From assembly GCA_030041385.1 (NCBI GenBank), contig JASHNY010000190.1, positions 1 to 34,643 of the forward strand: 34,643 nt of DNA. Direction: 5' to 3'. Position 1 is the stretch's first letter. Every line of letters starts with the position of its first letter. Both the position numbers and the translations under genes were made by a program. The notes beneath the pieces are model-generated. The model saw nothing but the letters and a program-made list of their open reading frames with translations, was not told the DNA's origin and did not search any database. Below are positions 4,236 through 23,862 of the stretch, one piece after another. Origin of the DNA: Alphaproteobacteria bacterium. Lineage in GTDB: Bacteria; Pseudomonadota; Alphaproteobacteria; ATCC43930; CGMCC-115725.

Positions 4236-5525
4236 TCAATTCACCATGTGCTTATGGAACAGCGCGATGCCGCGCAGCATGTCGATCGCGCGGGCCAACT
4301 GGTAATCCTCGGGCGTGCCCAGCACCGCGGCATCGACCGTGCTCTGTTCGGCTGCGGTGTCGCTGGTGCTCGCCGGCTTGGCCGCGTCGGGCTTGCCGTT
4401 GGCCGACGGGTGCTCGATCTTCGCCGCCGGAATGACGATGTCGGGCTCGATCCCCTTCGCCTGGATCGAACGCCCCGACGGCGTGTAGTAGCGGGCGGTG
4501 GTCAGGCGCATCGCGCCGTGCCCCGGCAGGGGAATGATGGTCTGCACCGATCCTTTGCCGAAGGAGCGGGTGCCGACCAGGATCGCGCGATGGTGATCCT
4601 TCAGCGCGCCGGCCACAATCTCGCTCGCCGAGGCGGAGCCGCCGTTGATCAGCACCACCATCGGCAACCCGTTGGTAATATCGCCCGGCCGCGCGTCATA
4701 GCGCTGCGCGTCTTCGGCGCGCCGGCCGCGAGTGGAGACGATCTCACCCTGGTTGAGGAAGGCGTTAGCCACCGCAACAGCCTGGTCCAGCAGACCGCCG
4801 GGGTTGTTGCGCAGGTCGAGCACGACCCCGACAAGCTTGTCGTTTGACTGCTGTTTCAGGCTCTTCATCGCATTGTTGAGGCCGACATCGGTCTGTTCGG
4901 TAAAGCTCGTGATGCGGATGTACCCGATATTTCCATCCTCGAGATGCGAGCGGACCGACTGTATCTTGATGTTGGCGCGAACCAGCTTCACATCGAACGG
5001 ATTGCGGCCGGATCGGCGGATCGTCAGCGTGATCTCGCTGTTGATCGGCCCGCGCATCTTTTCGACGGCCTCGGGCAAGGTCATGCCCTGCACCGGCTGG
5101 CCGTTGATATGGGTGATCAGGTCGCCCGGCCGCAGCCCGGCGCGGGCCGCCGGCGTATCGTCGATCGGGGAGACCACCTTGACGAGGCCGCTCTCCATCG
5201 AAACCTCGATCCCGAGCCCGCCAAACTCGCCGCGGGTCTGGACCTTCATGTCGTCGAAATTCTTGGCGTTGAGGTAGTTCGAGTGCGGGTCGAGCGCCGT
5301 CAGCATTCCGTTGATCGCGCCTTCGATCAGCGATTCGTCGCTGACCTTGTCGACGTAGTCGGCGCGAACGAGCTGGAACACGTCGCCGAACAGGTGGAGC
5401 GCGCCGTAGGTCGCGGTCGTGTTGCCGTCCGGGTTTGCCGCGGTGGCCGCCGCGTCCACGTCCTGGTGCAGCGAAAATACCAGCGCCGTCGCCGTGACCG
5501 CCGCGATCAACCCCAATCGTTTCAT
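4236..5525 (-). CDS. ctpA: C-terminal processing peptidase, S41 family
   Basis: A periplasmic serine protease of 429 aa that cleaves near protein C-termini and is often involved in envelope and murein-enzyme turnover. Residues 1-25 form a signal peptide (MKRLGLIAAV then a hydrophobic stretch to VDA). A tail-specific N-domain is followed by a PDZ domain (about 95-180, with GLGIEV and GLRPGDLI) and the S41 core. The catalytic dyad is visible: Ser299 in GGSASASEI and Lys324 in SFGKGSVQ, 25 residues apart as in the family. DLRNNPGG (about 237) is the usual oxyanion-region motif. A Pro/Ala/Ser-rich linker follows the core. The upstream neighbour in this conserved order should be envC, which here is a pseudogene; its remnant stop overlaps the ctpA ATG as ATGA. 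Confidence 0.93.
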   Translation of the reverse strand: MKRLGLIAAVTATALVFSLHQDVDAAATAANPDGNTTATYGALHLFGDVFQLVRADYVDKVSDESLIEGAINGMLTALDPHSNYLNAKNFDDMKVQTRGEFGGLGIEVSMESGLVKVVSPIDDTPAARAGLRPGDLITHINGQPVQGMTLPEAVEKMRGPINSEITLTIRRSGRNPFDVKLVRANIKIQSVRSHLEDGNIGYIRITSFTEQTDVGLNNAMKSLKQQSNDKLVGVVLDLRNNPGGLLDQAVAVANAFLNQGEIVSTRGRRAEDAQRYDARPGDITNGLPMVVLINGGSASASEIVAGALKDHHRAILVGTRSFGKGSVQTIIPLPGHGAMRLTTARYYTPSGRSIQAKGIEPDIVIPAAKIEHPSANGKPDAAKPASTSDTAAEQSTVDAAVLGTPEDYQLARAIDMLRGIALFHKHMVN

Positions 5526-5852
5526 TCACACACCCTATGATCTCCGGCCCGCCGTGCCGCTCCGCCGAAAATCGGCGGATCGAGCGGGCGACCGTCACGG
5601 CGCAGTCCGGGGCGGGTCGCAGTGCCCTATCGGCCCTGGCGGGATCCCCGTCGCGGCTACCGCTCGCGGGGCCAGTACCTTGCCCGGCCGCAGCGTCCAA
5701 CCCGCCCGATCCCGACGACGGCGGATGATATCCGCGGCCATGCCCAGGGATCAAGATCGGGCCATAGCGGCAAGAGAGGCCTGACCCTCGGCTCACTCGC
5801 TGATCGGGCGGCTCGCTCCCAGAACCCGTTTCGCCCGCTGTCACTCCGCGGC
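5522..5852 (-). pseudogene. envC: Decayed envC (murein hydrolase activator, M23/LytM) remnant
   Basis: The 315 bases between gpmI and ctpA have no intact gene, but on the minus strand fragments of the C-terminal LytM domain of EnvC appear in order across shifting frames: VTAGETGSGS, then YGPILI..HGRGYH, then VVGIGR, then LDAAAGQ, then VLAPRAVAATG, then LRRDGRPLDP. An intact EnvC reads roughly ...FGE..., GYGxILIxxHGxGYHxLLAGxGRIDxxxGQxVLAGEPV..., ELRRDGxPxxP in one frame. At least four frame changes are needed, and the N-terminal coiled coil and part of LytM are missing. The last frame ends at a TGA overlapping the ctpA ATG, and the first fragment overlaps the gpmI stop, exactly where envC sits in related genomes. 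EnvC normally activates septal amidases. This is my reading of short motifs, not an alignment. Confidence 0.72.
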
Positions 5853-15686: not shown

Positions 15687-17105
15687 ATGACGGCGCGCAG
15701 GCTGCGCCGGGCGCTTGTGGTGACCATCGGAGTCCTGCTGCCCGGCGCGGTGTTCGCCGTGCTCTATTGGCTCGGTCTGGTCGCGGCCCGCCCGGCCGCC
15801 ATTGCCGGCGGCGTGAGCATGGCGGTGACCGCAATGGCTGTCGTGCCCGCCGCGCAGTCTCTGGCGGTCGTGCAGGACGCCGTCGACCGGCTCGATGCCG
15901 ATCCGGCTGCCGGGGCCGAGGCGTTGCGCGGGCGGCGCATCGGGCGCCTTACCCCGGCCGCCGAGGCGCTGCGGCTGTCGGTTGCGCGCGCCTGGTACAG
16001 CGCGGAGCAGCGCCGGGGCGAAGCCCAGCGGCGTCTTGCTGCGGCCGAGGCGGTGATCGCCGCGGCACCGGATCCGCTGATCCTGATCGACGCGCAGCGC
16101 CGGATCGTGCGCGCCAATGCCGCCTCCATTGATCTGATCGGGATGGTGCCGGAATCGCGCGACCTCGCCGCCGCGTTGCGCAACCCCGCCGTGCTGGCGG
16201 CCGCCGACGCCGTCTTGCGCGGCGAGCCCGCGCGTGTCGTCGAATTTTCGCTGACGATCCCGGTCGAGCGCTGGCTCAGCGCCCGGTTCGCGCGCATCGG
16301 CGGCACCTCGCTCGACGGTGCGGTCGCGATCCTGACATTGCACGATGTCACCGCGCTGAAACGGGCGGAGGAGATGCGGGCCGACTTTATCGCCAATGCC
16401 GGGCATGAGCTGAAGACGCCGCTCGCGACGTTGATCGGGTTCATCGAAACATTGCGCGGGCCGGCCCGGGACGACGCCGCCGCCCGCGAGCGGTTTCTCG
16501 GCATCATGAACGAGCAGGCCGAACGCATGGCGCGACTGGTCAATGACCTGCTGTCTTTGTCGCGGATCGAACTCAACGAGCATGTCGCGCCGACCGAACG
16601 GATCGATCTCGCGCCGGTCATCGAGCACATCGCCGATACCCTCGAATTGCGAGCCGCCCAACGCGGCATGCGGCTCGAACTGTCGTTGCCCGCGGACCTG
16701 CCGGCCGTGCCGGGCGATGCCGACGAGCTGGCGCAGGTATTCCAGAACCTGCTCGACAACGCGATCAAGTATGGCCGGCCGCACACCGCGATAGCGGTCG
16801 CCGCAGCGTACGACCATGCCGCGGTGCGGCGCGGGGGCGCCTTTGTACGGGTTGCGGTGACGGACCACAGCGAGGGCATCTCAAGCGAGCATCTGCCGCG
16901 GCTGACCGAGCGCTTTTACCGGGTCGACACCGCACGCTCGCGCGAGATGGGCGGCACCGGCCTTGGGCTGGCGATCGTCAAGCACATCCTCAACCGTCAT
17001 CGCGGCCGCCTCGAGATCGAGAGCGTGCTGGGCCGCGGCTCGACCTTCACGGTCTGGCTGCCTGCCGCCGACGGCCGCGGCGAGGCCCCCGTCGGTCGGG
17101 CCTGA
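15687..17105 (+). CDS. phoR: Phosphate-regulon sensor histidine kinase
   Basis: A 472-aa membrane kinase that phosphorylates PhoB under low phosphate. Two N-terminal hydrophobic segments (about 10-32 and 36-55) have almost no periplasmic loop, as in PhoR. A PAS domain follows (about 118-225, PDPLILIDAQRRIVRANAA). The HisKA H-box is NAGHELKTPLATLIGF with His240. HATPase boxes: N FQNLLDNAIKYG, F FYRVDTARSREMGG, G2 GTGLGLAIVK. The G1 box reads DHSEGI, with Ser395 where Gly is usual. It starts 36 bases after maeB; that gap folds as CCGGG-ACAT-CCCGG plus a GC stem, and no clear Shine-Dalgarno is seen. Assignment rests on the architecture plus the pst/phoB context. Confidence 0.92.
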   Translation: MTARRLRRALVVTIGVLLPGAVFAVLYWLGLVAARPAAIAGGVSMAVTAMAVVPAAQSLAVVQDAVDRLDADPAAGAEALRGRRIGRLTPAAEALRLSVARAWYSAEQRRGEAQRRLAAAEAVIAAAPDPLILIDAQRRIVRANAASIDLIGMVPESRDLAAALRNPAVLAAADAVLRGEPARVVEFSLTIPVERWLSARFARIGGTSLDGAVAILTLHDVTALKRAEEMRADFIANAGHELKTPLATLIGFIETLRGPARDDAAARERFLGIMNEQAERMARLVNDLLSLSRIELNEHVAPTERIDLAPVIEHIADTLELRAAQRGMRLELSLPADLPAVPGDADELAQVFQNLLDNAIKYGRPHTAIAVAAAYDHAAVRRGGAFVRVAVTDHSEGISSEHLPRLTERFYRVDTARSREMGGTGLGLAIVKHILNRHRGRLEIESVLGRGSTFTVWLPAADGRGEAPVGRA

Positions 17106-17149
17106 GCGGCCGGCGCGACAACATCGTCCTAGCGAAAAGGGCTCTGATA

Positions 17150-18271
17150 ATGCGCTCACTTGCAGCAGGGGCGAGCCGATATGGACGGATGGCGGCATCG
17201 CGGCTGTGGCCGAGCCTGGTGCGGCGTCGCCCGATCGTCGTCCTGCTGACGTCGCTTTTCGCCGCAATCTGCGCGCCTGGACCCGCCGGCGCCGGCGATG
17301 TTTCCGGTGCCGGGGCGACCTTTCCCTATCCGGTCTACGCCGAGTGGACCCGGGCCTACAAGGCGCAGACCGGGGTCAATGTGCTCTACCAGGCCATCGG
17401 TTCGAGCCGCGGAATTGCACGGGTCGTCGCCCGTACCGTCGATTTCGGTGCGTCCGACATGCCCCTCGACCCGCAGAGCCTGACGCAAGACCGGCTGCTG
17501 CAATGGCCGATGGTCATGGGCGGGGTGGTGCCGATCGTCAACCTGCCCGGCATCGAGCCTGGCCAGCTCAAGCTCGACGGCAAGGTGCTTGCCGGCATGT
17601 ATCTCGACGCGATCACCAAATGGAACGACCCGGCTATTGCCGCGCTCAACCCTGGCCTCGCGCTGCCTGGCCTGGCGATCACGACGGTTCACCGCGCCGA
17701 CGGATCGGGTACCAACTTCATCTTTACCCATTACCTGTCGGGCATCGATGCACGCTTCAGAAGCGAGATCGGCGAGAACACGGCGGTCCAGTTTCCCGGC
17801 GGGGTCGGTGCGGACGGTAATGTCGGGGTTGCTGCGCTCACTCGCCGCACGGCCGGCGCGATCGGCTATGTCGAATATGCCTATGCCTTGCAGAACAGGA
17901 TGACATACGTCCTGCTGCGCAACCGCGCGGGCGCGTTCGTCGCGCCGACGAACGCCAGCTTTCAGGCCGCCGCGGCCAATGCCGACTGGTCGCGCAGTGC
18001 CGGCTTTCAGGTCTTGCTGACCGACCAGCCCGGCCGGGAAAGCTGGCCGATCACCGGCGCCACCTTCATCCTGGTGCCGAGACGCCCGGCCAACCCCGTG
18101 ATCGCGCGCCAGGCGCTGGATTTCTTCGACTGGGCCTATCGCAACGGCGGCAAATTGGCCGAAAGGCTTGCCTATGTGCCGATGCCGGCGAAAGTGATCG
18201 ACCTGGTCGAACGCGCCTGGCACCGCGAGATCACCGGGCCGGACGGCAAACCGGTATGGGCAGGCTCGTAA
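17150..18271 (+). CDS. pstS: Phosphate-binding protein PstS, first paralogue
   Basis: A periplasmic phosphate receptor for the PstSCAB importer, 373 aa. A signal peptide occupies about residues 1-48 (basic start, VVLLTSLFAAIC core, cleavage after AGA). The phosphate-site loops are recognisable: GAGATFPYP, DFGASDMPL, and HRADGSGTNFIF with Arg, Ser, Gly and Thr ligands. The second loop reads AIGSSRGIARV, where most PstS have GSGGG. About half of the positions in these motifs match the second paralogue immediately downstream. No Pho box is visible in the 44 bases before it, so it may rely on a transcript running from phoR or maeB. The two copies could differ in affinity, but sequence cannot decide this. 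Confidence 0.87.
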   Translation: MRSLAAGASRYGRMAASRLWPSLVRRRPIVVLLTSLFAAICAPGPAGAGDVSGAGATFPYPVYAEWTRAYKAQTGVNVLYQAIGSSRGIARVVARTVDFGASDMPLDPQSLTQDRLLQWPMVMGGVVPIVNLPGIEPGQLKLDGKVLAGMYLDAITKWNDPAIAALNPGLALPGLAITTVHRADGSGTNFIFTHYLSGIDARFRSEIGENTAVQFPGGVGADGNVGVAALTRRTAGAIGYVEYAYALQNRMTYVLLRNRAGAFVAPTNASFQAAAANADWSRSAGFQVLLTDQPGRESWPITGATFILVPRRPANPVIARQALDFFDWAYRNGGKLAERLAYVPMPAKVIDLVERAWHREITGPDGKPVWAGS

Positions 18272-18310
18272 TGACGATCGCCGCCTTTGCGGTAATGGTT
18301 ACCGGCACCA

Positions 18311-18344
18311 TTGTCACAAAAGTGACCTTAAACCATCACATAAT
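18311..18344 (+). promoter_or_regulatory. Pho box and -10 element (PhoB-dependent promoter) before the second pstS
   Basis: Heptamers spaced every 11 bases: TTGTCAC (18311-18317), AAAA, GTGACCT (18322-18328), TAAA, CCATCAC (18333-18339). The first is one base off the CTGTCAT/C consensus heptamer; the second and third are weaker. CATAAT (18339-18344) begins 10 bases after the first two heptamers, the classical spacing of a Pho box to its -10, with no -35 needed. The position, in the phosphate cluster ahead of pstS-pstCAB-phoU-phoB, fits activation by PhoB-phosphate. A small inverted repeat, AATGGT/ACCATT, lies at 18294-18312. The leader to the gene is about 180 bases and shows nothing else. 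Confidence 0.62.
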
Positions 18345-18532
18345 CGCAGCGTGGATTTCCTACTAATGCCGCCCGCGGCGATACCGCCGCGACATGGCCG
18401 TGCCGCTGTGATTTCTCCAAAGGTTGAGACGATCGGCGCGAAGCACAGTGCGAGTGACCTTCCGCCGGCCACGCTCTGCGGTCGGCGAGCACTGCCATGG
18501 CAACAGGGGAACAGGCATACGAGGAGGATGCT

Positions 18533-19582
18533 TTGAGCGACTTAGAAAGCCGGAGGCGGCAGCTTGGCGCTGGATTGTTGCGCGGCGGCGCGTTTGCGGT
18601 CGCGTTGACGATGGCGCCGGCAGCGTTCGCCGCGACCCAAATCGTGGGCGCCGGCTCCACCTTCGATTACCCCTTTTTCTCGAAGGCCTTCTACGAATAC
18701 ACCGCAAAGCATCCGGATGTTACCGTCAATTACCAATCCATCGGGAGCGGCGGCGGTATCCAGCAATTTACCGCGAAGACGGTCGATTTCGGGGCCAGCG
18801 ACGTGCCGATGAACGCGGCCGAATTGGCGCGCACCAAGGCGCCCGTGCTGCAAATCCCGATTACGCTCGGGGGCGCCGGGATCGCCTACAACCTGCCCGG
18901 GATCGCAAAGGGTATGCATCTCAGCCGCGAGGTGATCGCCGACATCTATCTGGGTAAAATCACCAAATGGAACGATCCGGCGATTGCCAAGCTCAATCCC
19001 GGGATGAAACTGCCCGACATGGCGATCACCGTCGTGCATCGCTCTGACGGATCGGGGACGACCTACATCTTCACCGATTTCCTCAGCCATGTTTCGCCCG
19101 AGTGGAAGTCGAAGGTGGGGACCAACAAGGACGTGCAATGGCCGGCGCCGAGCAGCGTCGGCGGCAAGGGCAATGAGGGCGTTGCCGGTCTGGTGAAGCA
19201 GACGCCGGGCTCGATCGGCTATGTCGAGCTGGCCTATTTGCTCGAAAACGATATGGCCTACGCGCTGGTGCAGAACAAGGCGGGCACCTATGTCTACCCG
19301 ACGATCGGCACGGTCGCGGCCGCCGCGGCAACCAAGCCGAACGTCTCCTCCCAGGATTTCTCGATCGTCGACACCGCCTGCGCCCAGTGCTACCCGATCA
19401 GCGGGTATTCCTGGGTGCTGCTGTACCAAAAGCCGCAGGACGCGGCCCGCGGCAAGCTGGTCAAGGAAATTATGACATGGCTGGTGACCCGGGCCCAGCC
19501 GATCGCCAAGACCGTCGATTATGTGCCGCTGCCGGACAACGTCCAGAAGCAGGGGCTGAACGTTCTTGGGGAAATGGAGTAG
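18533..19582 (+). CDS. pstS: Phosphate-binding protein PstS, second paralogue
   Basis: A second periplasmic phosphate receptor, 349 aa from the chosen start. Loops: GAGSTFDYPFF, SIGSGGGIQQF, DFGASDVPMN, HRSDGSGTTYIFTDFL; these are closer to canonical PstS than the upstream copy. I choose TTG at 18533 because GAGGAGG (18521-18527) lies 5 bases before it and the resulting signal peptide is ordinary (basic start, then AVALTMAPAAFA, cleavage before ATQ). An ATG at 18497 would add 12 residues that include the ribosome-binding site itself. pstC follows 43 bases on. The Pho box upstream makes this the likely main, phosphate-regulated receptor gene. Confidence 0.92.
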   Translation: MSDLESRRRQLGAGLLRGGAFAVALTMAPAAFAATQIVGAGSTFDYPFFSKAFYEYTAKHPDVTVNYQSIGSGGGIQQFTAKTVDFGASDVPMNAAELARTKAPVLQIPITLGGAGIAYNLPGIAKGMHLSREVIADIYLGKITKWNDPAIAKLNPGMKLPDMAITVVHRSDGSGTTYIFTDFLSHVSPEWKSKVGTNKDVQWPAPSSVGGKGNEGVAGLVKQTPGSIGYVELAYLLENDMAYALVQNKAGTYVYPTIGTVAAAAATKPNVSSQDFSIVDTACAQCYPISGYSWVLLYQKPQDAARGKLVKEIMTWLVTRAQPIAKTVDYVPLPDNVQKQGLNVLGEME

Positions 19583-19625: not shown

Positions 19626-20594
19626 ATGACCGAACAGGCAATCGCTGCTTCAGCCACACCGCGTCCGGGCGCCGGCAGCCGCAAGCTGCGGCAGGCGGAG
19701 CGGGTGGGCTCGGCGATCTTTGTCGGGATGCTGCGGGGATCCTGCTGGCTGTTCCTTCTGATCGTCCTTGGCTTGGCCGCCGAGCTGATCTGGGGCGCCC
19801 GGCTCTCACTGCGGAAATTCGGTATCGGGTTCCTCTGGAGCACCCAGTGGAACCCGGTCACCGAACAATTTGGCGCCGCTCCTTTTATTTACGGCACGGT
19901 CGTAACCTCGGTCATCGCGCTGGCATTGGCGGCGATTGTCGGCGTCATGGCGGCGATCTACCTCGCCGAATTCGCGCCGCGCCGGGTCGGCGCCTATCTC
20001 GGGCTGCTGATCGAGCTGCTCGCCGCGGTGCCAAGCATCGTCTACGGCCTGTGGGGGCTGTTCGTGCTCGCGCCGATCGTCGCCAATTGGATCGGCCCCG
20101 CACTGCAAAGCGTGCTCGGGTTTCTGCCGTTCTTTCAGGGCACGATCTACGGCGTCAACGTGCTGACGGCGGCGTTTATTCTGACCTTGATGATCATTCC
20201 GACGATCACGGCGATCACGCGCGATTTGATTGTCGCCATCCCGATGCGGTTCCGCGAGGCGGCGCTCGCCCTCGGCGCGACACCATGGGAGATGGCGGTG
20301 AAGGTGGTGCTCCCGTCGGTACGGCGCGGCATCATCGGCGCCTCTATGCTCGCCTTTGGCCGCGCACTCGGCGAGACCATTGCGGCAACGATGGTTATCG
20401 GCAATCGCCCTGTGATCAGCGCCTCGCTCTTTGCGCCGGGCTACACGATCGCGAGCGTCATCGCCAACGAGTTCACCGAGGCGACGTCCGATCTTTACCT
20501 GAGCGCTCTGATCGAGCTCGGCCTCATCCTCCTGGTCGTCAGCATACTCGTTATCGGCATGGGCCGCCTGATGGTGCGGCTCTTGATTCGGTAG
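19626..20594 (+). CDS. pstC: Phosphate ABC transporter permease PstC
   Basis: One of two inner-membrane channel subunits of the high-affinity phosphate importer, 322 aa. Six membrane spans can be followed, with the first at about residues 42-60, and the EAA coupling motif reads REAALALGATPWEMAVKVV, which docks on PstB. GRALGETIAATMVIGN is a strong PstC signature. Start at 19626 (MTEQAIAAS) rather than 19566, since the added 20 residues run from the end of pstS and look non-coding. Lies in tight order with pstA, 7 bases downstream. Confidence 0.94.
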   Translation: MTEQAIAASATPRPGAGSRKLRQAERVGSAIFVGMLRGSCWLFLLIVLGLAAELIWGARLSLRKFGIGFLWSTQWNPVTEQFGAAPFIYGTVVTSVIALALAAIVGVMAAIYLAEFAPRRVGAYLGLLIELLAAVPSIVYGLWGLFVLAPIVANWIGPALQSVLGFLPFFQGTIYGVNVLTAAFILTLMIIPTITAITRDLIVAIPMRFREAALALGATPWEMAVKVVLPSVRRGIIGASMLAFGRALGETIAATMVIGNRPVISASLFAPGYTIASVIANEFTEATSDLYLSALIELGLILLVVSILVIGMGRLMVRLLIR

Positions 20595-20601
20595 GCGGAC
20601 C

Positions 20602-21480
20602 ATGAGCGCCACGAGCGCAGCGGCCCTGTTTCGACGCCGTCGGCTGAAGAGCGTGTTGTGGATCGGGGCGTGCGGGATTTTCGCGACGGCCGTCGCGGTA
20701 ATCCTCCTGCTGATCATGGGCTATATCGTCCGCGAGGGGATCAGCGCCATATCGATCCCGTTTCTCACCCGCCTGCCGCGGCCGACCGGCATTTCCGGCG
20801 GCGGCGTCGCCAACGGCATCGTCGGTACGCTGATCATTGTCGGTATTGCCGCATTGATGGCGTTTCCTGTCGGCGTGCTGGTCGGAACCTATGTGGCCGT
20901 TTACGGGCACCGGCGGATGTCGCAGTGGCTGAGCTTTCTTGCCGATGTGCTTGCGGGGGTTCCCAGCATTGCCATCGGCATTTACGCCTATACGCTGCTG
21001 GTCGAGCCGTTCCGGCACTTTTCCGCCTTTTCCGCGTCGTTCGCTTTCGCGGTCTTGATGATCCCTCTGGTCATCCGCGCCACCGAGGGCGCAATTTCCA
21101 TTGTCCCGCGCGAGTTGCGAGAGGCGGCGACCGCATTGGGGGCGCCCGAAGCGCGGGTTGTGCTGAAGATTCTGGTGGTCGCCGCGCGTCCCGGCATTAT
21201 CACCGGCCTTCTGCTCTCGCTCGCGCGGGTGACCGGCGAGACGGCGCCGCTTCTTTTCACGGCTTTCGGCAGCCAGTACTGGGAGTTGAGGCCGGGCCAA
21301 CCCATGGCCGAGCTGTCGCTGCAGATTTTCACCTATGCGATCTCGCCGTATGCCGACTGGCATGCCCAAGCCTGGGGTGGCGCGCTGATTCTGATTCTGG
21401 CCGTCTTCGTGCTGAGCGTCCTCGCGCGCCTGTCGGTGCTCTTCGGCCGCGAGGGCCGCGGCCATGGAGGCACGGCGTGA
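20602..21480 (+). CDS. pstA: Phosphate ABC transporter permease PstA
   Basis: The second channel subunit, 292 aa, pairing with PstC. Signatures are GGVANGIVGTLIIVG, ADVLAGVPSIAIGIYAY, an EAA loop REAATALGAPEARVVLKIL, and LARVTGETAPLLFTAFG. Six membrane spans are expected and seen. ATG at 20602 follows a GGCGGACC run and is 7 bases after the pstC stop. The gap of 80 bases to pstB is the longest inside the cluster and carries a run of six T (around 21539), but no convincing hairpin before it. Confidence 0.94.
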   Translation: MSATSAAALFRRRRLKSVLWIGACGIFATAVAVILLLIMGYIVREGISAISIPFLTRLPRPTGISGGGVANGIVGTLIIVGIAALMAFPVGVLVGTYVAVYGHRRMSQWLSFLADVLAGVPSIAIGIYAYTLLVEPFRHFSAFSASFAFAVLMIPLVIRATEGAISIVPRELREAATALGAPEARVVLKILVVAARPGIITGLLLSLARVTGETAPLLFTAFGSQYWELRPGQPMAELSLQIFTYAISPYADWHAQAWGGALILILAVFVLSVLARLSVLFGREGRGHGGTA

Positions 21481-21560
21481 TAATGTCGATCCCGCAGAGG
21501 CGGCCCAGCGCCCGTGATTGATGCCCGCGTGCACCCCGTTTTTTGGAGCAACGCCGCGAC

Positions 21561-22436
21561 ATGGATATAGAGAACAGCCCCCGCGCAGGCATGTGGTTAG
21601 CGAGAGTCGCCGTGCCCGCGCCCGGTGCGTCCGCCCTTCCTCCTGTGCAGCCTGAAGCGGTCGCGCCTGCGGCCGCGGAGGTTCGGGTCAAGGTCGATAT
21701 CCGCGACGTCGATTTCTTTTATGGGAAGACGCAGGCACTGAAAAACATCAACATGTCGCTGCGCGACCGCCGGGTGACCGCCTTTATCGGCCCGTCAGGC
21801 TGCGGCAAGTCGACCCTGCTGCGCATCGTCAACCGCATCTACGAGCTCTATCCCAATCAAACGGCGACCGGCGAGGTTCTTGTCGATGGCCAGAACATTC
21901 TGGCCTCGACGTTCGATCTGAACGCGGTGCGCTCAAAGATCGGCATGGTCTTCCAGCGGCCGACACCATTTCCAATGTCGATCTATGACAACATCGCCTT
22001 TGGCATCCGGCTTTACGAAAAGCTGCCCACATCCGAGATGGACAACCGGGTCGAATCGGCGTTGCGCCGCACCGCGCTGTGGGATGAGGTCAAAGACAAA
22101 TTGCGCCAGAGCGGTCTCAGCCTTTCGGGCGGCCAGCAGCAGCGGCTGTGTATCGCGCGGGCGATCGCGGTGCAGCCCGAGGTGCTGTTGCTCGACGAAC
22201 CGGCATCGGCGCTCGATCCGATCTCGACCCAGCGCATCGAAGAACTGATCGCCGAGCTGAGGCCGGATTATTGCATCGTCATCGTTACCCACAACATGCA
22301 ACAGGCGGCGCGTTGCTCCGACTACACCGCCTTTATGTATCTCGGCGAACTGATTGAATTCGACGAAACCGAGCGGATGTTCACCCATCCCCGGGAAAAG
22401 CGAACCGAGGACTACATCACCGGGCGCTTCGGCTGA
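21561..22436 (+). CDS. pstB: Phosphate ABC transporter ATPase PstB
   Basis: The ATPase that powers PstCA, 291 aa. Walker [10 protein letters not shown] (77-85), Q-loop [10 protein letters not shown], signature [14 protein letters not shown] (188-201), Walker [13 protein letters not shown] (209-220) and the switch His in VTHNMQQA are all intact. KNINMSL and [16 protein letters not shown] mark it as PstB rather than another importer. It has a Pro/Ala-rich N-terminal extension of about 40 residues before the ATPase fold. Start ATG 21561 is chosen; TTG at 21543 would add six residues. phoU starts 14 bases after the stop. Confidence 0.96.
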
Positions 22437-22450
22437 CGGGAGTTGCGCAT

Positions 22451-23176
22451 ATGGCTGCCGAACATATCGTCAAGAGCTATGATGAAGAGCTGGGCCGGCT
22501 CAGCAAGATCATCGCCGAGATGGGCGGTCTTGCCGAGAGCCAGCTTGCCGCGGCGGTGGATGCGGTATCGCGGCGCGACAGCGCGCTTGCGCTGCAGGTG
22601 GTGGAAGGCGACGCCAAGGTCGATGAGCTCGAGCGCGAACTCAACAACCTGGCGATCCGGCTGCTGGCGCTGCGCCAGCCGATGGCGATCGACCTGCGCG
22701 AGATTTTCGTCGCGTTGAAGATCGGCAGCGACCTCGAACGCATGTGCGACTATGCCGCCAATGTCGCCAAGCGCTCGATCGCGTTGTCGCATACGCCGCC
22801 GGTGCAATCGGTCCACTCGTTGCCCCGCATGGCTCATCTGGCGCTGCGGCTGGTCAAGGACGTAATCGACGCGTATGTCGCCCACGATGCCGACAAGGCG
22901 CTGCAGGTGTGGCGCAGCGATGAGGAACTCGACGAGATGTACGCGAGCCTCTTCCGCGAGTTCCTGACCTATATGATGGAGGATGCTCGCAACATCGGCA
23001 CCTATACACATTTGCTGTTTATGGCGAAGAACATCGAACGGATCGGCGATCACGCCACCAACATTGCCGAAAACCTGTATTACCTCGTGCACGGCACGGC
23101 GCTGACCGAGGTGCGGCCGAAAGGCGACAGAACCAGCCTCGAAGTCGTCGCGCCCGAGAGCCGGGTGGGGCGATGA
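22451..23176 (+). CDS. phoU: Phosphate transport and signalling regulator PhoU
   Basis: A 241-aa all-helical cytoplasmic protein that links PstB to PhoR and keeps the regulon off when phosphate is plentiful. Two three-helix repeats (about 1-110 and 120-220) each contain a PhoU metal-cluster motif: EIFVALKIGSDLERMCDYA and LLFMAKNIERIGDHATNIA, with the ExxxD and ExxxDHxxN residues. GGAG lies 7 bases upstream. It overlaps phoB by 4 bases (ATGA), so the two are likely made together. Confidence 0.95.
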   Translation: MAAEHIVKSYDEELGRLSKIIAEMGGLAESQLAAAVDAVSRRDSALALQVVEGDAKVDELERELNNLAIRLLALRQPMAIDLREIFVALKIGSDLERMCDYAANVAKRSIALSHTPPVQSVHSLPRMAHLALRLVKDVIDAYVAHDADKALQVWRSDEELDEMYASLFREFLTYMMEDARNIGTYTHLLFMAKNIERIGDHATNIAENLYYLVHGTALTEVRPKGDRTSLEVVAPESRVGR

Positions 23177-23862
23177 AGCCGCTCGTCCTCGTCGTCGAAG
23201 ACGAAGCGCCGCTGGTCACGCTCCTGCGCTACAACCTGGAGCGCGAGGGTTTTGCCGTGAGCGAAGCCGCGGACGGCGAAGAGGCGCTGCTGAGCATCGC
23301 CGAGCGCAAGCCCGATGCGGTATTGCTCGACTGGATGCTGCCGGTCGTCTCCGGCCTCGAAGTGTGCCGGCGCATCCGCCGCGCCGCTTCCACCAGGGTG
23401 TTGCCGGTGATCATGCTGACCGCCCGCACCGATGAAGCCGACCGCGTGCGCGGCCTCGACAGCGGCGCCGACGACTATATCGTCAAGCCGTTCAGCACCA
23501 GCGAGCTGGTGGCGCGGCTGCGCGCCGTCATTCGCCGGGCGCAGCCGAGCATGGCCGAGGATGTGCTGCGCTATGCCGATCTGTCGATGGACCTGACCGC
23601 GCACCGCGTGTCGCGGGCCGACCAGCCGATCCATCTGGGGCCGACCGAGTTTCGCCTGTTGCAGCACTTTCTGCGCTATCCCGGCCGGGTTTTTTCGCGC
23701 GAGCAACTGCTCGACCGGGTATGGGGCGAAGACGCCGAATTGGAGATGCGGACGGTTGATGTCCACATCCGTCGGTTGCGCAAGGCCCTCAACGAAGGCG
23801 GTGGAGACGATCTCCTGCGCACCGTCCGCTCCGTCGGCTACGCCCTTGACCGGGTTCGCTGA
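23173..23862 (+). CDS. phoB: Phosphate-regulon response regulator PhoB
   Basis: An OmpR/PhoB-type activator of 229 aa. The receiver has the acidic pair E9/D10, phosphorylated Asp53 (LLDWMLP), Thr in MLTART and Lys in YIVKPFS. The winged-helix domain (about 130-228) shows LGPTEFRLLQHFLRYPGRVFSREQLLDRVWG with the recognition region TVDVHIRRLRKAL and the wing VRSVGYALD. It is cognate to PhoR, five to seven genes upstream, and would bind the Pho box before the second pstS. A small hairpin CCGGG-TAAA-CCCGG at 23916-23929, without a T run, follows it and could mark the transcript end. Confidence 0.95.
   Translation: MKPLVLVVEDEAPLVTLLRYNLEREGFAVSEAADGEEALLSIAERKPDAVLLDWMLPVVSGLEVCRRIRRAASTRVLPVIMLTARTDEADRVRGLDSGADDYIVKPFSTSELVARLRAVIRRAQPSMAEDVLRYADLSMDLTAHRVSRADQPIHLGPTEFRLLQHFLRYPGRVFSREQLLDRVWGEDAELEMRTVDVHIRRLRKALNEGGGDDLLRTVRSVGYALDRVR

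Follow-up and report, generated by a model that had tools for sequence, protein, structure and literature searches.

A mosaic pst operon with native-type and foreign-type phosphate receptors side by side in an alphaproteobacterial genome

The stretch of DNA analysed here, a contig of 34,643 nucleotides (JASHNY010000190.1, assembly GCA_030041385.1) from an Alphaproteobacteria bacterium and hereafter referred to as the window, carries a pst phosphate-import operon in which two genes for the phosphate-binding receptor PstS, pstS1 and pstS2, lie between the sensor kinase gene phoR and the permease gene pstC. Gene-by-gene comparison and phylogenetic analysis show that pstS2-pstC-pstA is a foreign-type cassette set among native genes, phoR upstream and pstB-phoU-phoB downstream, and that pstS1 represents the native receptor, which lacks both its native permease genes (pstC and pstA) and the Pho box normally found ahead of native pstS genes. 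From the upstream signals PstS2 is probably the PhoB-induced receptor and PstS1 an orphaned, basally expressed one, and the reading as a whole, a mosaic pst operon with an inducible PstS2 and a PstS1 stranded as a basal receptor, is considered likely. The features concerned are as follows.

15687 to 17105, + strand: phoR, sensor kinase of native type (best NCBIfam match phoR_proteo, 312 bits, slightly below the cut-off of 334)
17106 to 17149, + strand: gap of 44 bp between phoR and pstS1, without a Pho box (best matrix score -11.9), in a place where many relatives have one
17150 to 18271, + strand: pstS1, native receptor, intact, fast-evolving and apart from native permeases (PstS trees, invariant-site counts, predicted fold)
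18311 to 18343, + strand: Pho box of three 11-bp half-sites (matrix score 22.9), aligning with the boxes of two relatives, G001 and G007
18360 to 18366, + strand: -10-like element CTACTAA, its TA spaced from the box as in the family
18533 to 19582, + strand: pstS2, foreign-type receptor, TTG start preferred, alternative ATG at 18497 (identities, trees, AGGAGGA in the three carriers)
19626 to 20594, + strand: pstC, foreign type, ATG start (identities, tree, topology test)
20602 to 21480, + strand: pstA, foreign type, found in 3/39 family genomes (topology test without a G007 row)
21543 to 22436, + strand: pstB, native ATPase, 74-86% identical to pstB of G002-G005 (and tree)
22451 to 23176, + strand: phoU, native (family profile match, comparison with relatives)
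23173 to 23862, + strand: phoB, native (family profile match, comparison with relatives)

The placement of two PstS genes between phoR and pstC by the first-pass annotation of the window was verified, positions included: PstS1 (346.6 bits) and PstS2 (376 bits) both exceed the curated TIGR00975 cut-off of 205 (NCBIfam) and are complete PstS proteins. The start of pstS2 is more likely the TTG at 18533 than the ATG at 18497, because AGGAGGA lies a few bases 5' of it in G001 and G007 too; the TTG start shortens the gene by 12 codons. Two TIGR00975-type PstS within 2 kb were observed in the window alone among the 18 PstS-bearing genomes of a 144-genome class sample.

The genome of the window (G000; 264 contigs, 98% complete, the window being contig C90) was compared with seven other genomes of the genus (G001-G007). 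G002-G005 carry the PstS1 type only, while G001 and G007 carry the PstS2 type in the locus; no PstS1-type gene was found in G001 (94% complete) or G007 (79% complete), and neither type was found in G006 (74% complete). The cassette pstS2-pstC-pstA is therefore a feature of three of the eight genus genomes, at the same locus and framed by native phoR and pstB-phoU-phoB, the G007 locus being distributed over two contigs with shared end sequence that jointly give phoR-box-pstS2-pstC-pstA-pstB-phoU-phoB. PstS2 is 86% identical to its counterpart in G007 and 77% to that in G001, and otherwise reaches at most 54% in 61 genomes, except for a 93-residue fragment at 58%. The window pstC shows 85% identity to G007 and 73% to G001, as against 42-51% to the native-type pstC of G002-G005 and other relatives, and pstA shows 73-80% to G001 and G007 (90% over the other part of the G007 pstA), as against 40-45% to native-type relatives. 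Window-type PstA occurs only in G000, G001 and G007 among 39 family genomes, with matches elsewhere of at most 46%, and no native-type pstA was detected in these three genomes at an E-value of 1e-40. The window phoR is 63-71% identical to its positional counterparts in G002, G003 and G005 (that of G004 is covered by 56 residues only), and, the short G004 phoR fragment aside, identities to G002-G005 range from about 63% to 86% for phoR, pstB, phoU and phoB. The marks of a mosaic operon, namely a foreign segment, a conserved locus, native flanks and absence of the displaced native genes, are found here, with pstS1 remaining in the window. The foreign part spans pstC and pstA as well, beyond what the first-pass annotation had described. 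Base composition (GC content) was left unused as evidence for transfer, as the cassette (about 61-65%) resembles pstB-phoU (about 60-64%) and differs only from phoR-pstS1 (about 65-75%).

Phylogenetic trees agree with the comparison of identities. PstS1 clusters with G002-G005 (Shimodaira-Hasegawa-like approximate likelihood ratio test support 99, or 98 with fewer rows). PstS2, PstC and PstA cluster with G001 and G007 (PstA without G007) and next with rows from Eremiobacterota, Acidobacteria and Dormiibacterota. The window PstB falls inside the native family clade and, in a tree of its C-terminal part, the window phoR falls in the genus clade. Short fragments were excluded by a length filter; the phoR tree was built with G016b dropped and with no usable row for G004 and G029, and the PstA tree has no G007 row, that gene being split over two contigs. 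The PstB of G001 (L125) branches outside the other family members despite its native flanks, possibly owing to an extra exchange or to fast evolution. Neither G000 nor G001 has its third PstS copy represented in the trees; the G000 copy, with about 33% identity to PstS2, lies on the - strand of contig C172 (L136, about 4612-5700) between two genes that resemble major facilitator superfamily transporters as judged by their sequence, and has a relative in G001 contig C255.

Topology was examined with approximately unbiased (AU) tests on reduced sets of 33-38 rows. A single clade of all family PstS was rejected (p 3e-44), as was a single clade of native and cassette PstA (p 6e-69, no G007 row). 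The first-pass annotation had taken the two receptors for a tandem duplication to be dated, and this claim fails, since the PstS phylogeny gives them separate origins: PstS1 and PstS2 as sisters have an AU p of 7e-46 and the constraint costs 234 log-likelihood units. A duplication within the lineage of the window, after which one of the copies diverged, would account for two adjacent genes of the same family (42% identical over 317 columns), and true paralogs at the same locus do exist elsewhere, with copies in two shared subclades in the Acidobacteriota L048 and L058. However, the two copies of the window sit in different, well-supported parts of the tree, and pstC and pstA share their origin with pstS2, so that a duplication, rejected under the model used and revivable only by a strong model artefact, is extremely improbable. 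Two pstS on the same strand before pstC were also observed in the Acidobacteriota L058:307-2472 and L048:3748-6906 and in the Gemmatimonadota L111:3532-6912; the Acidobacteriota copies pair across loci, representing an old true duplication, and those of L111 pair together.

The donor side was surveyed with a pattern-based scan of named genomes, from which the best 80 of 588 confirmed stretches (596 candidates) were considered. Among these 80, the nearest to PstS2 is a metagenome-assembled genome (MAG) of Eremiobacterota (L045) at 63%, followed by MAGs of Acidobacteria and Dormiibacterota, and L045 shares the S-C-A-B gene order, with 58%, 59% and 54% for the genes after pstS. No PstS2 match at an E-value of 1e-100 was found beyond the window in a 385-genome class sample, G001 and G007 evidently being outside that sample.

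The two versions of the locus could also have been brought together artificially, by assembly of strain variants (one with native pstS, the other with the foreign cassette) into one contig. The number of contigs is what a metagenome assembly might have, as this one is inferred to be, and both versions exist in the genus. Such a chimera would, however, fuse ordinary variants, yet pstS1 lacks the usual box and carries nine changes at sites invariant among its kin; moreover, the alignment of the pstS2 leader with that of G007 extends as far upstream as the box, and native flanks lie on either side. A chimera is accordingly regarded as very doubtful.

Regulatory signals differ between the two receptor genes. 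A Pho-box matrix was constructed from 11 boxes of relatives, the window excluded, with leave-one-out scores of 22.1-46.3 for its own members; the best chance scores were 11.7 in 40 simulated windows and 16.6 in 400 simulations that matched the composition of the intergenic stretch holding the site. The statement of the first-pass annotation that pstS2 is preceded by a Pho box and a -10 was upheld: the site at 18311-18343 is the sole clear Pho box of the window (runner-up 5.9), although its score is near the bottom of the range covered by the training boxes. In G001 and G007 the boxes score 31.2 and 30.4, are placed at the phoR end, and align with this box, which in the window lies upstream of pstS2. 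A TA at a fixed offset downstream of the box, which lies outside the matrix, occurs in 20/29 native-type relatives, and reads CTA in the window, G001 and G007. The box of the window contains a perfect inverted repeat, GTCAC-AAAA-GTGAC (18313-18326), which arises because the second half-site reads GTGACCT and was not seen in the listed boxes of relatives.

The absence of a box before pstS1, also claimed earlier, was confirmed over 450 bp upstream, where the best score is -11.9. Over the same distance, 25 of the 29 native-type pstS copies in the family, order and class score above 11.7 and 19 above 16.6; among the 18 copies not used for the matrix, 14/18 and 8/18 exceed these levels. The copies below 11.7 are G016b, G054, G044 and G031, the last right at the limit. 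In many relatives the box adjoins or overlaps the end of phoR, ahead of the native pstS. Since pstS1 orthologues usually have a box, pstS1 is the odd one of the two genes. With a family-type box before pstS2 and a boxless pstS1 starting 44 bp after phoR, the receptors are probably regulated differently, as had been proposed. A simple consensus scan, uninformative for Pho promoters, gave no sigma-70 site in 16900-18700. In another family member, G018 (L142:3670), the interval between maeB and phoR holds a Pho-box-like site with a score of 24.7, so that there, unlike in the window, phoR may be under PhoB control.

PstS1 itself has changed in an unusual manner. Its protein divergence relative to its genus sisters, set against the family, is 1.33, as compared to 0.99 for PhoR, 1.06 for PstB, 1.14 for PhoU and 0.96 for PhoB, with no excess silent-site divergence. 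The native set used for the divergence and invariant counts was without G016b, G021_2 and the cassette-type rows. At nine columns that are invariant in 26 other native-type PstS, each of which departs at 0-2, PstS1 carries a substitution (K65E, N79L, G86S, G87R, Q91R, I92V, G153D, S183A and K222D). Counted over 80 family-invariant columns, 9/80 are changed in PstS1 and 71/80 kept, against 0/80 changed in each of four sisters, and 118/265 of the variable columns are changed. In a wider alignment with 114 other PstS, from which G021_2 was dropped for its very long branch, position 87 is Gly in 104 and Ala in 10, with Arg in none; position 153 is Gly in all; and Lys occupies position 65 in 111 and position 222 in 110. 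S183A is the mildest change, Ala being present in 7/114. The altered binding loop of the first-pass annotation, GSSRG in PstS1 against GSGGG in PstS2, is real, but its third-place Ser is not itself odd, because the PstS of Yersinia and Burkholderia read GSSGG, and it is the Arg that is unusual.

The phosphate ligands of Xanthomonas citri PhoX, given in an excerpt of PMC5439949 as Ser34, Ser62, Asp80, Arg159, Gly164, Thr165 and Asn201, map by a constant offset of 23 to T57, S85, D103, R182, G187, T188 and N224 of PstS1; all seven are kept, and PstS2 has the same residues in all seven columns. Four of the altered residues lie no more than two positions from S85, R182 or N224. The structure predicted for PstS1 (mean predicted local distance difference test score 85, confident beyond the first 46 residues) resembles the PstS structures of E. 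coli and Yersinia, with a template modelling score of 0.95 by target length to 2z22; a helix is predicted to begin at residue 85, which would place R87 in its first turn. The 373-codon frame is intact and the N-terminus reads as signal-like. These observations fit better with a functional protein under altered constraint than with a pseudogene. As the changed residues adjoin ligands and none of the seven mapped ligands is changed, a change in affinity and a change in how PstS1 docks to the permease are equally plausible. The changes beside ligands (G86S/G87R, S183A, K222D) together with the charge changes K65E, Q91R and G153D elsewhere suggest altered docking or an altered pocket rim with phosphate binding retained.

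The same evidence bears on what PstS1 may be doing. A decaying relic, with its native pstC and pstA displaced and its box lost and now drifting towards loss, would be expected to be boxless, with raised protein divergence and changes at invariant sites, as PstS1 is, and no native gene was found in G001 and G007. Against this stand the intact frame, the signal-like N-terminus, the good predicted fold, the retention of the mapped ligands and of most invariant columns, and the far lower rate of change at invariant than at variable columns; a relic is therefore considered unlikely. Alternatively, two receptors of differing affinity could serve one hybrid PstCAB, PstS1 constitutively and PstS2 on starvation, a proposal in keeping with the different upstream signals of the two genes and with the known occurrence of two phosphate receptors in one organism, such as SphX and PstS1 in cyanobacteria, or PstS and PhoX of X. 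citri (excerpt of PMC5439949). The loss in PstS1 of the near-universal K65 and K222 speaks against it, and a native receptor would not by default be expected to dock to a foreign PstC/PstA, which leaves this proposal as a possibility somewhat short of even. A non-transport function, either in sensing periplasmic phosphate on behalf of PhoR or a chemoreceptor or in the reception of another oxyanion or a phosphonate, may be considered from the position next to phoR without a Pho box, the Arg gained beside the anion site and the interaction of Pseudomonas aeruginosa PstS with the chemoreceptor CtpL also noted in the excerpt of PMC5439949. The kept phosphate ligands tell against it, no partner is identified and plain relaxation fits the same sequence, and such a function is distinctly improbable. 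Its more specific form, in which PstS1, freed from transport by the replacement of its permeases, now serves as a dedicated periplasmic receptor coexpressed with PhoR and signals to the kinase or to a chemoreceptor whatever the flux through the foreign importer, is more doubtful still, although if true it would mean that the sensing of phosphate has been separated naturally from its transport.

In the favoured mosaic-operon reading, PhoB would bind 18311-18343 under phosphate limitation and drive pstS2-pstC-pstA-pstB-phoU-phoB; PstS2 would hand phosphate to the foreign PstC/PstA channel, the native PstB would supply power, and PhoU and PhoR would read the state of the hybrid importer. Read-through from phoR would provide PstS1 as a phosphate-binding protein at a low and roughly constant level. 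An accessory role for PstS1 as a receptor when phosphate is at ordinary levels is put forward tentatively, with nearly even chances.

Several points weigh against the reading of a mosaic operon with a stranded basal receptor. A single clade of native and cassette PstC is rejected at an AU p of 0.013, the weakest of the tests. PstS1 stands out among the tree rows by its unusual amino-acid composition and, because its branch is long, where exactly it falls within the genus clade is uncertain. The closest listed donor-side match reaches 58-63% over S, C and A, and the label of the L045 MAG could be wrong. As 4/29 native-type copies have no box above 11.7 and 10/29 none above 16.6, boxlessness is not unique to PstS1. 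Read-through from phoR to pstS1 is assumed, the promoter scan there having used the sigma-70 consensus only. Finally, the carriers of the cassette do not form one clade, and one simple acquisition is therefore insufficient; PstS1 may either have remained in place all along or have come back by recombination into the position between phoR and the box.

A single acquisition in one carrier clade was rejected with gyrB and rpoB (AU p 0.00018; 0.00066 for the window with G007 and 0.039 for the window with G001). G007, represented in the marker tree by gyrB only since no rpoB was found, is sister to the native-type G003 (100/99 in the marker tree, 99/96 with phoR), and G001 lies among native-type genomes. 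Judging from these trees, alternation of the locus between two versions is needed, either by repeated exchange via the conserved flanks or by old coexistence with differential loss. Between G000 and G007 the cassette proteins are 86% (pstS2), 85% (pstC) and 90% (part of pstA) identical, against 80% for pstB; a recent exchange of the cassette between the two is unsupported, four-fold silent-site divergence being 45-58% in the cassette and 54-64% in the rest of the operon. The silent sites look saturated, and hence no dates are given for the exchange.

The components of the window are those of the E. coli-type PstSCAB-PhoU and PhoR-PhoB system, all of which are present; unlike that system, the window has two receptors, and its PstS2, PstC and PstA differ in lineage from its ATPase and regulators. 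Mosaic operons formed by in situ gene displacement were reportedly described by Omelchenko and colleagues in 2003; as in the window, distant homologues replace part of an operon of which the rest is native, but in the window the receptor of the displaced version persists beside the newcomer in one genome. The sphX-pstS1 pair of Synechocystis, an example of cyanobacterial tandem phosphate receptors, likewise places two receptors ahead of one importer. In the excerpted account of X. citri (PMC5439949), PstS and PhoX are two phosphate-binding proteins with conserved ligands, as in the window, which differ in the regions facing PstC/PstA and in expression; by analogy, changed docking is a plausible meaning of the PstS1 changes. 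The X. citri pair is described there as a gene duplication with phoX outside the pst operon, whereas the window has a native and a foreign receptor, adjacent. The phosphate islands of HIMB59, as far as the excerpt of PMC10734472 describes them, carry alternative pst versions at one genomic position with a phylogeny that does not follow the genomes, similar to the window; there the pst operon including PstB and PhoU is in the flexible island, whereas here the break lies between pstA and pstB.

No prior report of a mixed native and foreign pst operon was found in the literature searched, mostly at abstract level. The components, the promoter and the in-place replacement are each of known kind, and the combination, in which S-C-A without B is swapped and the receptor of the displaced version stays, boxless, next to the new one, is less usual. 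It amounts to a natural part-exchange, in which PstS, PstC and PstA are swapped for distant homologues and the ATPase and the signalling proteins are kept, so that old and new parts can be compared naturally. If the hybrid works, phosphate signalling through PstB, PhoU and PhoR needs no native transmembrane subunits, and the interface coupling PstC/PstA to PstB tolerates permeases that are merely about 40-51% identical. A stranded native receptor, with ligand residues kept and otherwise invariant neighbours altered, may be one possible fate after permease replacement. With native (G002-G005) and swapped (G001 and G007) loci and both receptors in the window, receptor-permease specificity is directly testable by comparison. 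A second divergent PstS is also present in G021 (L031/L149); it is 36-39% identical to the two receptors of the window, lies close to the native-type pstS in opposite orientation, and shares its contig with a second pstA-like gene.

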